Of a DNA stretch of 64,000 nucleotides, positions 19,955-25,193 are shown piece by piece. Made by a program: the position numbers and the translations under genes. The stretch lies in the NCBI GenBank assembly GCA_945860295.1, contig CAMAQH010000014.1, positions 1-64,000 on the forward strand, written 5' to 3'. The DNA is from Prosthecobacter debontii. GTDB lineage: Bacteria; Verrucomicrobiota; Verrucomicrobiia; Verrucomicrobiales; Verrucomicrobiaceae. How positions within the stretch are numbered: position 1 is the first letter of the stretch; every line of letters begins with the position of its first letter. The notes beneath the pieces were generated by a model that ran no database searches, was not told where the DNA came from, and saw nothing but the letters and a program-made list of their open reading frames with translations.

Positions 19955-20378
19955 GATTCGCAGTTCGTCGTTGTATGAATTTAAGCAAGAGGCCGAGCGC
20001 TAGGAGGGTGAGATCGCGCGCGATGAGTTCCGTGTAGTTGCTCGTAGCCGCGCCGCTGTCACCAAAGCAGCCACAGCGGATGTCGGTGCCGCGAAACCAC
20101 GCGAAGCTAATGGCGATGAGGAAGGCGAGCAGGCTTCCATTCAAAACCAGCAGTCCGCCTTTTCTCAAAAAGCCTGTGATCACTGCCAGTCCCCCCAAAA
20201 TCTCCAACCACGGCAGAAACATGGCGAGTATCCCCGCATACGGATCAGGCAGCAGAGCAAAGCTGCGCACGTCATCGAGAAAGACCATCGGGTTCCAAGC
20301 CTTCACCACCCCAGCATAAACGAAGACGCCGCCGTAAAGGAGGTGGAGGAGACCAGATAGCAGCTTCATGAAGATCAA
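19944..20378 (-). CDS. DoxX/MauE-type membrane protein
   Basis: 'LLHLLYGGVFVYAGVVKAWNPMVFLDDVRSF', 'GTDIRCGCFG', several TM segments. Confidence 0.75.
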   Translation of the reverse strand: MIFMKLLSGLLHLLYGGVFVYAGVVKAWNPMVFLDDVRSFALLPDPYAGILAMFLPWLEILGGLAVITGFLRKGGLLVLNGSLLAFLIAISFAWFRGTDIRCGCFGDSGAATSNYTELIARDLTLLALGLLLKFIQRRTANREH

Positions 20379-21658
20379 TCTGCTGGCTGATCAAGGATCG
20401 CGGGTTCGTCTTTCTCCAGCGGCAGCATGATCGACACGAGTGCTGCAGGGATGAACAAGAAGCCGGCATAGAGCAGCGCTTCGCGGTAGTCGCCCACTTT
20501 GACAAAGATGCCGAAGAACACGGTGCCGCCAGCAGCGACGATGCGGCCGATGTTGTAGCAAAAGCCGGAGCCTGTGGTGCGCAGGAGCACGGGGAAGAGC
20601 GGCGGCAGACACATAGTGAAGAGGCCGAAGACACCCTGACAGGCGCCGATGATGGCGAACTGAATCTTCGTGGTCTCCCAGTCCCAGGTTCGGGAGAAGG
20701 CAATGTACATGATGCCAAAGTAGGCCAGCATCATCAGCACGATGGCTTTGCGATAGCCCATCAGTTTGGCCAGCGCGCCGGCGATGTAGTTACCGATGAG
20801 GCTGCCGAACATGATCCACATGAGGGCGGTGACGAGTGCGTTGTCTTTACCCGCTTTCGTCAGGCTGGTGATCTCGGGTAGGCTGAGGATGTGCTTTTGC
20901 TGCCAGTAAAGGAAAGTCCAGTGAGCGGTGAGTGATACGGCGCAGATGAGCATGACTCGCCACGTCACCCCGCGCACCGATGGACCAAAGAGATCGGCAA
21001 TGCGCGGCACAGGTTGACCGACACGGGCCTGCTCCCAGGCTTCGGTTTCGGGAACGGCCTTGCGAATCCAGAGGGTCAGGAAGGCTGGCAGGACACCGAT
21101 GAGGAAGATGAAGCGTGGTTCCTTACCGGCGAGCATCCAACCGGCGAAACAGGCGAGCAGCACGCCGCAGTTCACCGCTGATTGCAGGGTGGCGGCGATC
21201 CATGGACGCCATTTCTTTGGCCAAGTCTCCGAGAGCAGCGAAGCGCCCACAGCCCACTCACCGCCGATGCCGAGCGCGGCGAGGAAGCGGAAGATCATGA
21301 GATGCCACCAGGTCTGCGCAAAGAACGACAGGCCGGTGAAGCAGGCATAGGTCAGAATGGTCAGCGTCAGCGTGCGGCTGCGGCCCAGGAGATCCCCCAC
21401 ACGGCCAAAGAACGCGCCACCCAGCGCCCAGCCGGCGAGAAATCCGGCCTGGATGATCGCTCCATGCGTGCCTACGGATGGATCGCTTTCTGGCAGCACC
21501 ATAAGCTGCGCCACAAAGGCTGTAGCCACCAGCGTGTACAAGTGCATGTCCAGTCCATCGAAAAGCCAGCCGAGCCACGCGGCGATGCCTGAGCGCACTT
21601 GATGAGACGAGAGATCGCGCAGGCGAGTGATTTCATTGGGTTGGGTGGAGCGGGTCAT
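20375..21658 (-). CDS. MFS transporter
   Basis: About 12 hydrophobic segments, 'GWALGGAFFGRVGDLLGRSRTLTLTIL', 'ALGIGGEWAVGASLLSETWP'. Likely start MTRSTQPNE. Confidence 0.88.
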   Translation of the reverse strand: MTRSTQPNEITRLRDLSSHQVRSGIAAWLGWLFDGLDMHLYTLVATAFVAQLMVLPESDPSVGTHGAIIQAGFLAGWALGGAFFGRVGDLLGRSRTLTLTILTYACFTGLSFFAQTWWHLMIFRFLAALGIGGEWAVGASLLSETWPKKWRPWIAATLQSAVNCGVLLACFAGWMLAGKEPRFIFLIGVLPAFLTLWIRKAVPETEAWEQARVGQPVPRIADLFGPSVRGVTWRVMLICAVSLTAHWTFLYWQQKHILSLPEITSLTKAGKDNALVTALMWIMFGSLIGNYIAGALAKLMGYRKAIVLMMLAYFGIMYIAFSRTWDWETTKIQFAIIGACQGVFGLFTMCLPPLFPVLLRTTGSGFCYNIGRIVAAGGTVFFGIFVKVGDYREALLYAGFLFIPAALVSIMLPLEKDEPAILDQPAD

Positions 21659-21817
21659 GGAAAGGTGAGAGCTTTGGGCATTCAGAGGCTTGTGGCAAGC
21701 TTTGTGAATGTCCGCCGCCCGAGTAAGCTTAACATTCATGATGTTAAATCCCAATACAGCCAGTCATTCAAATGTAATTTCCATACATCGCGCGGCGTGC
21801 CAATGGGGAGCCGGTCC

Positions 21818-23484
21818 ATGTCACTCGTTCCCCCCGATGAGTTGGTGTTTCTTGCCTTCGACACGCAGATCAAGCGTCTGGTCGAAGTGCATGTTTTGAA
21901 CAATGGTGCCCAGCTGGTGCTGATGTTAAACGCTCGGCCTTTGAGCGTGCTGAAATGGCCGCGGCAGTTCGTAGTCCGACCTTCATGCGAGTTATCGATG
22001 TGGGTGAGGATCAGGGGTTTGTTTATTATACGAGCAATCTTAATGAGGGTGAGTTTGTTGCCAACTACATCGACCGTCGTGGTGCGCTACCATCTGCCAC
22101 GGTGTTTTCGCTTCTGTTACAAATGCTCGACGACTTGAAGTTGTTGGGCGACCGCCCGCGTCTCGTCACTCAGATGCGTTTGGATCGAGTGATGGTCTCC
22201 ACCTTGCAAGACACTTTCCTGCAACTTCGGCTTTATGATTTTGGGCTTTCCACATACGAAGCCGCGGCGGCTGATGGCTCTGCGCAGGTCTTGCAGGTGT
22301 GTGAGCTTATCTTTCTACTGCTGAATGGGAAAGTCTATGCGGGTGAGAGCCCTGATTGCTTCCCCGTGCTGACATCGTTGCCAATGAATCTGCGCACCAC
22401 ACTGCGCGCTGCCTTGAGCGACTCCACCAATGCGTTCACTTCCACCGAGAGGTTGCGTGACGATGTGCGCGAGGCTTGCTGTGCTTTTGTTAGCAGTATT
22501 CAGGAGCGCAGTTCGCGGAAGAAACTCGTCGTCATAACTGCCACGCGGCCGCTCTCTCAGCTCCAAGATCTACTGCTAGAAGGTGTGCCTGTGGAAAAAC
22601 TTCTTGGGAGTCGCTACCGTGCTGAGGATGAAGGTCCGGTTGGGCGTCTGCCGGTTTCCATTCCCTGTGTGAATGTGAAAAATGACCAACCCGTGATGGT
22701 TCACCTGCTGCCGTCTTCACGATTGGTGGAAAAGTCACAATACGATGCCGTGCCACAGCAGAGCTGGCGCTTCAGTGCTGATAAGCACCCTAACATCCTT
22801 CGCAGCCTCAGCCTGTGGGAGAGTCCTGAATGGAGCTTCTTGACTGAAGAGCGTGAGCCTGGCTTCACCCTGACTCGTCTGCTCACGGAGCGTCTCACAC
22901 TGAATGCCCGTGAGGTGTCTGTTGTACTGCGTCAGGTTTTGGCAGGCCTAGATCAGTCTCTGGAATGTGGTGTGCCGCGCCTTGCACTCCACCCATCAAA
23001 CATCGTCCTCCGTGTCGGCAAAGGCGGGCCTATGCAGTCCCGTGAGTTTGATCGGCTGATGCAAAAACGACTCGATGCCTGGCCACCCTTTGTGGTGAAA
23101 CTACGCGCCCATCTGACTATGCGGAATCTTTATGAGCCACCGCTTGTGAACTTGCCTCAATCACTGGACTTCGATGGTGAAAGCCAGGCGGATCGTGAAT
23201 ACAGGAATCGCTCATTCGTCGCCCTCGCCGTTTATCTACTCACGGGCGAGTGGCAGGTCGCGGATACCCCGATCTTTCCTGAAGCCATTGCTGAATCTCT
23301 CGCCGTCTTTATTCGTGATACACTGGAGCAGACTCAGCAGCAGGGGCGCACAGTCACGTCTGCCGATTTTTTTGCAAAAGTTCGAGTCCATCATGAGCGG
23401 TCCTGCGGTGCCAGATTTGGCAACTCGGCTGCGCGGCGCAAACGTCGCCCTAGAGAAAATGGAAAGCGTCGGCAGCGTGTCTGA
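21818..23484 (+). CDS. Tandem protein-kinase-like (pseudokinase) protein; coding region appears to change from frame 2 to frame 1 near 21900-21931
   Basis: Frame 2 gives N-lobe-like 'DELVFLAFDTQIKRLVEVHVLNNGA'; frame 1 continues 'FERAEMAAAVRSPTFMRVIDVGEDQGFVYYTSNL...LRLYDFGLS'. Second kinase-like unit 'VVLRQVLAGLDQSLECGVPRLALHPSNIVLRVG'. HRD residues not conserved. Confidence 0.6.
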
Positions 23485-24064
23485 CTTCGATGATGATCGG
23501 GATACTTTGTTCGATGACTCGGATGAAGATATCAGCCCGATCTCACGCCGATTGCACACGCATGATTTTGATCAGCGAGAGAGCAGGAGCAGCTCTGCCT
23601 GGCCCGTGTGGGCAGCGGCAGCCGTGGTGGTCTTTGGCCTCATCGCTCGGTGGATCATGTCTCCATCAGCAACTCCCACGGCCGCCGAGGTTGCCCAACC
23701 AAAGATTGAAACGAAACAGGAAGCACCTGTGAAGCCTTTCGTTGTGGCGCCGGCGACGCCTAAGCCCGTAGCTGCGGAGGTCGTGGCAGTGAAGACACCC
23801 CAGCCACCGAAGACCATCGCTGCAAATCCGCCTGCTCCCGTGACACTAGCACCTTCTGTCGATAAACCTGCGCCGTTGCCGTTGCCGATGACGCCGCCTG
23901 CGCCGATCGTCGCGCCAAACCCCGCTATCATGCGCAAGGCCTTACTCCCCTCGGTGGAAGAGGTCGCCAAATTTAAACAAGGTCAGGTCAAGCCGCAGGC
24001 TGTGCCTTTTCTAGTGCAAGTCATACCGACTGCACCACAGCAGATCGGCGTAGTGCCGACATGA
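23393..24064 (+). CDS. Single-TM protein with acidic N-terminal region and Pro/Ala-rich periplasmic tail; overlaps, and may be the true C-terminus of, the upstream kinase-like protein
   Basis: TM 'AWPVWAAAAVVVFGLIARWIM'; PA/PT-rich tail. Frame 2 joins the upstream kinase frame if the T7 run at 23367-23373 is T6. Confidence 0.65.
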   Translation: MSGPAVPDLATRLRGANVALEKMESVGSVSDFDDDRDTLFDDSDEDISPISRRLHTHDFDQRESRSSSAWPVWAAAAVVVFGLIARWIMSPSATPTAAEVAQPKIETKQEAPVKPFVVAPATPKPVAAEVVAVKTPQPPKTIAANPPAPVTLAPSVDKPAPLPLPMTPPAPIVAPNPAIMRKALLPSVEEVAKFKQGQVKPQAVPFLVQVIPTAPQQIGVVPT

Positions 24065-24120: not shown

Positions 24121-25050
24121 TTACCGCTCGATCCAGCGGTAAGCCACTCGCGAATTCTTCCAGAAATACTTCTCGCAGGCTTCAGTGCCTTTGCTGCTGA
24201 AGTAATCACGCACCAACCCGAAGACCACGTCATACGAAGCACCGCGATCACTCACCGGCCAGTTGCTGCCATAGATCAACCGATCCGGTCCAAAGCACTC
24301 CCACAGATGATCCAGGATCGGCAGGTAATAGCCGACTTCTTTCGAAGCCTGACCTTCCGCTCCCTTCACCTGCTCGACCAGTGCAGACACTTTCATCCAC
24401 ACGTTTTTCTGTTTCGAGATCACGCGGATGTTCTCCTTCCAATCAGGCTTCAATGATTTTGGATCGCCACTGCTACCCAGATGATTGATCACGATTCGCA
24501 GGTCCGTCACCTCCGCCGCTAGAGCAGCCGCAGGCAGCAGAGATTCAGGCGGGCCATTTAGGTCCAGCTCCAGTCCATGATCGGCGAGCAGTTTTGCTCC
24601 AGAAAGCACCTGATCTTTGATCGCGGTATCACTCACCGCAGCACCGCTCCAGCGCACACCCCGGAAGATCGGATTCCTGGAAAAGCGCTTTAAGTTATCC
24701 CTAAAGCCCGCATCAGCCGCCTCCAGATGCCCGACAAAACCGATGATGCATTTTTCCTGCTCGGCCAGATCAAGAATCCACTGATTGTCCTCCACCCAGG
24801 AACTCGCCTCCACGATCACAGTTTCCTTGATGCCATGCGGCTCTGCTTGCGCGCGCCAGTCAGCAGGCAGCACGGGTCGATATAGCTTCGTTCCCTTGCC
24901 CGGCCACGGCACGCCCTGCGGGCGTGTCGGGTCATAGAAATGCGTGTGAGTGTCGATGATACGCGTCGCCACCGTAGCAGCCTGGCTTGCTGTGGCGGCG
25001 GGGCACAATGCCAATGCGGCAGTGGATTGGATAAAGTGGCGGCGTTTCAT
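24121..25050 (-). CDS. Secreted amidohydrolase-2 family TIM-barrel hydrolase
   Basis: 'RIIDTHTHFYDPTRPQGVPWPGKG', 'LIYGSNWPVSD'; N-terminal 'MKRRHFIQSTAALALCPAATASQA' signal. Confidence 0.88.
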   Translation of the reverse strand: MKRRHFIQSTAALALCPAATASQAATVATRIIDTHTHFYDPTRPQGVPWPGKGTKLYRPVLPADWRAQAEPHGIKETVIVEASSWVEDNQWILDLAEQEKCIIGFVGHLEAADAGFRDNLKRFSRNPIFRGVRWSGAAVSDTAIKDQVLSGAKLLADHGLELDLNGPPESLLPAAALAAEVTDLRIVINHLGSSGDPKSLKPDWKENIRVISKQKNVWMKVSALVEQVKGAEGQASKEVGYYLPILDHLWECFGPDRLIYGSNWPVSDRGASYDVVFGLVRDYFSSKGTEACEKYFWKNSRVAYRWIER

Positions 25051-25193
25051 GGGATGCGTGGATTCGGGAGTGTATGGATCAGCCACTTCCTTTCTCCTCT
25101 TTCAAAGAAAACCTGAGTCATGGATGAAAGCATCCTCGTCTGGCCTGTTTCTTGATTGCCAAAGCACCTACCGCTCCCCATCATGCGCGCCGA

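Follow-up and report, generated by a model that had tools for sequence, protein, structure and literature searches.

In equine arteritis virus, the −1 frameshift site G UUA AAC is separated by a spacer of 5 nt from an elaborate pseudoknot, and a downstream stimulatory structure is expected after a spacer of approximately 5–9 nt (PMC3835772). The window analyzed in this study, a 64,000-nt stretch of Prosthecobacter debontii contig CAMAQH010000014.1, contains GTTAAAC at 21925–21931 (+ strand), in the register G_TTA_AAC that an earlier note on this DNA had given. The note placed this heptamer at a single frame switch within a pseudokinase gene, put forward programmed recoding as a hypothesis, and regarded a base missing through assembly error or real decay as the simpler explanation. 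Comparison with orthologues, which encode the protein in one frame, supports the simpler explanation. The heptamer near the switch is a coincidence and programmed recoding is not supported; very probably, the window copy is a recently decayed pseudogene with at least three frame-changing indels and a lost start.

Reading Frames of the Window Copy

Codon-by-codon comparison with orthologues revealed at least three frame changes in the window copy, all features of which lie on the + strand. At the expected orthologous N-terminus, an ATG is followed by TAA in frame 1 (21772–21777), and about eight N-terminal codons present in orthologues are absent, both as judged by eye. The N-terminal piece, IARRANGEPVHVTRSP, is encoded in frame 1 at 21787–21834, where the tblastn alignment starts at 21787; no other place in the window scores as high against the orthologue profile as the interval 21790–21834 (28.7 bits; next place, 15.2 bits). 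A surplus base in a run of six C (break 1, 21830–21835) then shifts the coding sequence from frame 1 to frame 2, in which the kinase-like N-lobe piece DELVFLAFDTQIKRLVEVHVLNNGAQL (21836–21916) shares 62–81% identity with orthologues.

Break 2, the switch seen by the earlier note, is real: frame 2 gives VFLAFDTQIKRLVEVHVLNNGA up to 21910, frame 1 resumes with KRSAFERAEMAAAVRSPTFMRVIDVGEDQGFVYYTSNL, and both pieces match the same orthologues, in which they form a single frame. It lies within 21911–21927, with the best position at 21917–21918, and is one base short (17 nt in the window vs. 18 nt in the closest orthologue) outside any homopolymer. The main piece (21919–23379, frame 1) covers most of both kinase-like domains, matches PF00069, shares 64–69% identity with the closest orthologues, and runs for approximately 487 codons with zero nonsense codons. 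Break 3, a surplus base in AAAAG at 23376–23380, leads from frame 1 back to frame 2 and was also detected, at 23357, by a codon model that uses no homology. The C-terminal piece (23381–24064, frame 2) encodes a probable membrane helix and a Pro-rich tail with 31–47% identity to orthologues. Breaks 1 and 3 are opposite in direction to break 2. The switch reported earlier is therefore present but is one of at least three, the others being marked by the frame-1 piece at 21790–21834 and the frame-2 piece from 23381 onward.

The frame-1 ORF of 509 aa from the ATG at 21955 to 23484 might alternatively be a shortened functional gene for a soluble tandem pseudokinase, since it is a single open frame with good conservation and retains most of both kinase-like domains. 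We regard this as highly improbable, because it has neither the membrane anchor nor the conserved N-terminal strands and its final ~30 residues are out-of-frame sequence; in addition, no promoter-like site of the one promoter type considered was found on the + strand here, which is a weak argument.

Protein Encoded by Intact Orthologues

Intact orthologues encode a protein with two kinase-like domains, a hydrophobic stretch that, as read from the translation, is probably membrane-spanning, and a Pro-rich tail. Positions 32–173 and 328–421 of the orthologue profile match PDB kinase chains (E-values down to 3e-6), and PF00069 is matched by the window piece with 32.5 bits (cut-off 31.7) and by an orthologue (L003) with 36.3 bits, so that the family belongs to the kinase superfamily by sequence match to kinase-domain profiles. 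Every NCBIfam match of the kinase-like protein is far under its cut-off. Inspection of the translations and consensus by eye indicated that domain 1 keeps DFG or DYG and has no HRD, and that domain 2 keeps HPSN and has neither HRD nor DFG. HRD and DFG, which together characterize an active kinase, do not co-occur in either domain. Both domains look like pseudokinases from these motifs, and the pseudokinase label of the earlier note is reasonable for a protein whose two kinase-like domains each lack parts of the catalytic motifs. An AlphaFold model of one orthologue, computed without an alignment, reached a pLDDT of 36 and was left aside.

Distribution of Orthologues and Gene Neighborhood

The orthologue search covered 56 related genomes. 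Close orthologues with 57–68% identity were identified in 26 same-genus genomes (L003–L028), 25 of which have one continuous frame through all three break sites; where the contig allows, they are open frames of approximately 800–970 aa. The gene is also intact in the Verrucomicrobiaceae MAG SSF29 (L152). Among the 56 genomes searched, a close orthologue was not found in six same-genus genomes (G005, G007, G012, G013, G025, and G031). The C-terminal tail of the orthologue L021 (G032:C58) contains an internal TGA and a frame break, at a site that differs from those of the window copy; L021 was broken independently.

The window copy is flanked by two open genes on the − strand, one for an MFS transporter (20375–21754) and one for an amidohydrolase (24121–25086). 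The transporter family also flanks the orthologue in G003, G006, G023, and G024, and the amidohydrolase family does so in G003, G017, G023, and G033. Intact orthologues at the syntenic locus in relatives and several inactivating changes in the window copy itself (three breaks and an eroded start) are both features by which a pseudogene is recognized. The gene looks dispensable because several congeners have no close orthologue and the G032 copy is independently broken. A dispensable gene also fits the size of the window genome, which is 4.7 Mb at 95% completeness (many congeners have 6–7 Mb), together with the congeners that have no close orthologue.

The GTTAAAC Heptamer

Programmed −1 ribosomal frameshifting at G_TTA_AAC would join the frames on both sides of break 2, and the heptamer does lie in the right register near the switch, with a short stem drawable on its 3′ side. 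The position of the switch nevertheless argues against slippage at this site: scanning the junction of break 2 against the orthologue profile gave 122.9 bits at 21917–21918 and 114.5 bits for a slip at the heptamer, so that slippage fits 8 bits worse and the site of the missing base precedes the heptamer. GTTAAAC is in register, but the frame changes before it is reached. In frame 1, its letters are part of Val-Lys-Arg codons (GTT AAA C), and the corresponding columns hold Lys-Arg or Lys-Lys codons in most of the orthologues.

Conservation points the same way. The outcome that the earlier note had named beforehand as speaking against recoding is the one observed: the frame is continuous in the orthologues, and GTTAAAC is absent at the site from all of them, so that neither the split frame nor the signal is conserved in relatives. 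The CGCTC/GAGCG stem proposed earlier can be drawn, but it abuts the heptamer without a spacer, and no stimulatory structure follows at a distance of approximately 5–9 nt; the 86-nt stretch is no more stably folded than shuffled versions of itself (z −0.87).

Motifs of this kind are also frequent by chance. In coding DNA of this genome, an in-register XXXYYYZ or GTTAAAC occurs in approximately 2.4% of 31-nt stretches (~0.8 per kb), and N XXY YYZ, the relaxed form that includes the window heptamer, occurs in approximately 12.5% (4.3 per kb). As a separate observation, GTTAAAC is present seven times in the window, both strands counted, vs. 2.65 expected by shuffling, and none of 100 shuffles reached seven.

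Even with a −1 slip, the gene would stay defective, since neither the two breaks of opposite direction nor the damaged start would be repaired; a slip at the heptamer would yield no full protein. Taken together, the absence of the heptamer from single-frame orthologues, the upstream switch, the two further + direction breaks with the lost start, the lack of a spacer and of unusual downstream structure, and the chance frequency of such motifs make programmed frameshifting at this site exceedingly unlikely. A narrower version, in which ribosomes of this one species slip by −1 at or close to G_TTA_AAC as a lineage-specific trait and produce a little fused N-lobe/kinase-like protein despite the other breaks, has in our opinion a similarly negligible probability. 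A candidate recoding site is hereby removed, and the case illustrates why a single heptamer close to a single frame break deserves little weight before orthologues have been compared and other breaks sought.

Gene Decay or Assembly Error

The three breaks might also be local sequencing or assembly errors in a gene that is intact in the organism. This explanation draws on the location of two of the three breaks in short homopolymers (C6 and A4), which also counts against decay, and on the well-conserved residual reading frame with its lack of nonsense codons. The genome was compared both ways with relatives, with 849 kb of the window genome, 1.19 Mb of G018, and 400 kb of G017. Among genes shared with G018, 1 of 109 is frame-broken in the window genome, namely the kinase-like gene, and 0 of 115 is frame-broken in G018 in the reciprocal comparison, by a both-way tblastn that is insensitive to short shifted stretches and did not pick up breaks 1 and 2 either. 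A relaxed pass flagged weak candidate displaced pieces in 4 other genes of 120, vs. 2 of 121 reciprocally. The raw output of the codon model comprised 26 switch events for 464 kb of the genome's own DNA and 6 for 400 kb of G018; homology supports only the event in the kinase-like gene as a break within a single gene, several of the others correspond to separate adjacent genes in G018, and many have no match.

Scattered sequencing error is unlikely because the kinase-like gene is the sole frame-broken gene among the 109 shared. For the same reason, indel error throughout the genome was considered as a cause and rejected as unlikely. Errors confined to this locus are in turn difficult to reconcile with the finding that none of the remaining 108 shared genes (849 kb sampled) has a break of this kind, with the strong coincidence of three breaks within one gene, with the location of break 2 outside homopolymers, and with an N-terminus that is several codons short. 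We therefore consider local error improbable, albeit a more serious contender than a shortened functional gene, and infer that the breaks lie in the DNA of the organism rather than in the assembly.

Recent decay fits best, with local assembly error second, and the open and syntenic flanking genes speak for decay. Otherwise invariant columns are changed slightly more often in the window copy (13 of 143) than in the sister copy (8 of 138), and the relative-rate test is not significant (chi2 1.1–3.4). This result and the lack of nonsense codons in the main frame mean that the breaks must be recent or, equally, errors. Under recent decay, the gene, inherited vertically and encoding a membrane-anchored tandem kinase-like protein, would have gained at least three indels and lost its start; translation of the decayed copy would yield short peptides, with a soluble, truncated fragment as the largest possible product.

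Linkage to the Bacterial Tubulin Operon

One set of relatives carries the intact orthologue on the same strand as btubA and approximately 145–290 nt upstream of it. Linked copies are found at 14 same-genus loci and in SSF29, and two further copies run into the edge of a contig; the linkage spans L152:4665-10749 and is also seen in L183, L192, L193, L199, and, in part, L010–L028. In L152 and L183, btubA is followed by btubB and then bklc. The L152 BtubA matches 2BTO with an E-value of 3e-266, and the L152 TPR protein matches BKLC 5O01 with 2e-110. In G011 (G011:C74:23639-24978), btubA appears as a pair of overlapping pieces that differ in reading frame, one of them with a TGA, possibly a break or an assembly error.

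Across 34 same-genus genomes, 23 have both the gene and BtubA (G020 being counted on a 44% paralogue alone), 4 only the gene, 1 only BtubA, and 6 neither, a co-occurrence with a Fisher p of 0.001 that is uncorrected for kinship and includes some incomplete genomes. Most congeners have BtubA; in the window genome (G000), it was not found beyond a weak FtsZ-level match, and the btubA-btubB-bklc operon is absent. The window copy occupies a btub-free locus common to its own clade, in which the gene is unlinked from btub. No mention of a kinase was found in the limited part of the btub literature that was consulted. On genomic grounds, the conserved adjacency to the btub operon in one clade suggests a candidate role for the intact gene as partner or regulator of the bacterial tubulin cytoskeleton. 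This linkage may matter more than the loss of a recoding candidate.

Comparison With Known Systems

The window shares with the equine arteritis virus site the identical seven letters in the identical register. It differs in having no spacer, no unusual structure, and no conservation, and in the frame change being upstream of the heptamer. Compared with Ser/Thr kinases of the PknB/StkP type (PF00069), the gene family resembles them in the two profile stretches of the orthologue that match kinase chains and in a membrane helix with a tail that is presumably extracytoplasmic. It differs from them in its tandem kinase-like domains, neither of which has a full HRD, and PASTA domains were not found in the family. 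The closest likeness is to ordinary indel-made bacterial pseudogenes, with which the window copy shares several indels in one gene, intact syntenic orthologues, and open neighbors. Nothing sets it notably apart from these, its decay being young as judged by the main frame free of nonsense codons, and the locus is most probably an ordinary decaying gene, with no novel mode of decoding involved.
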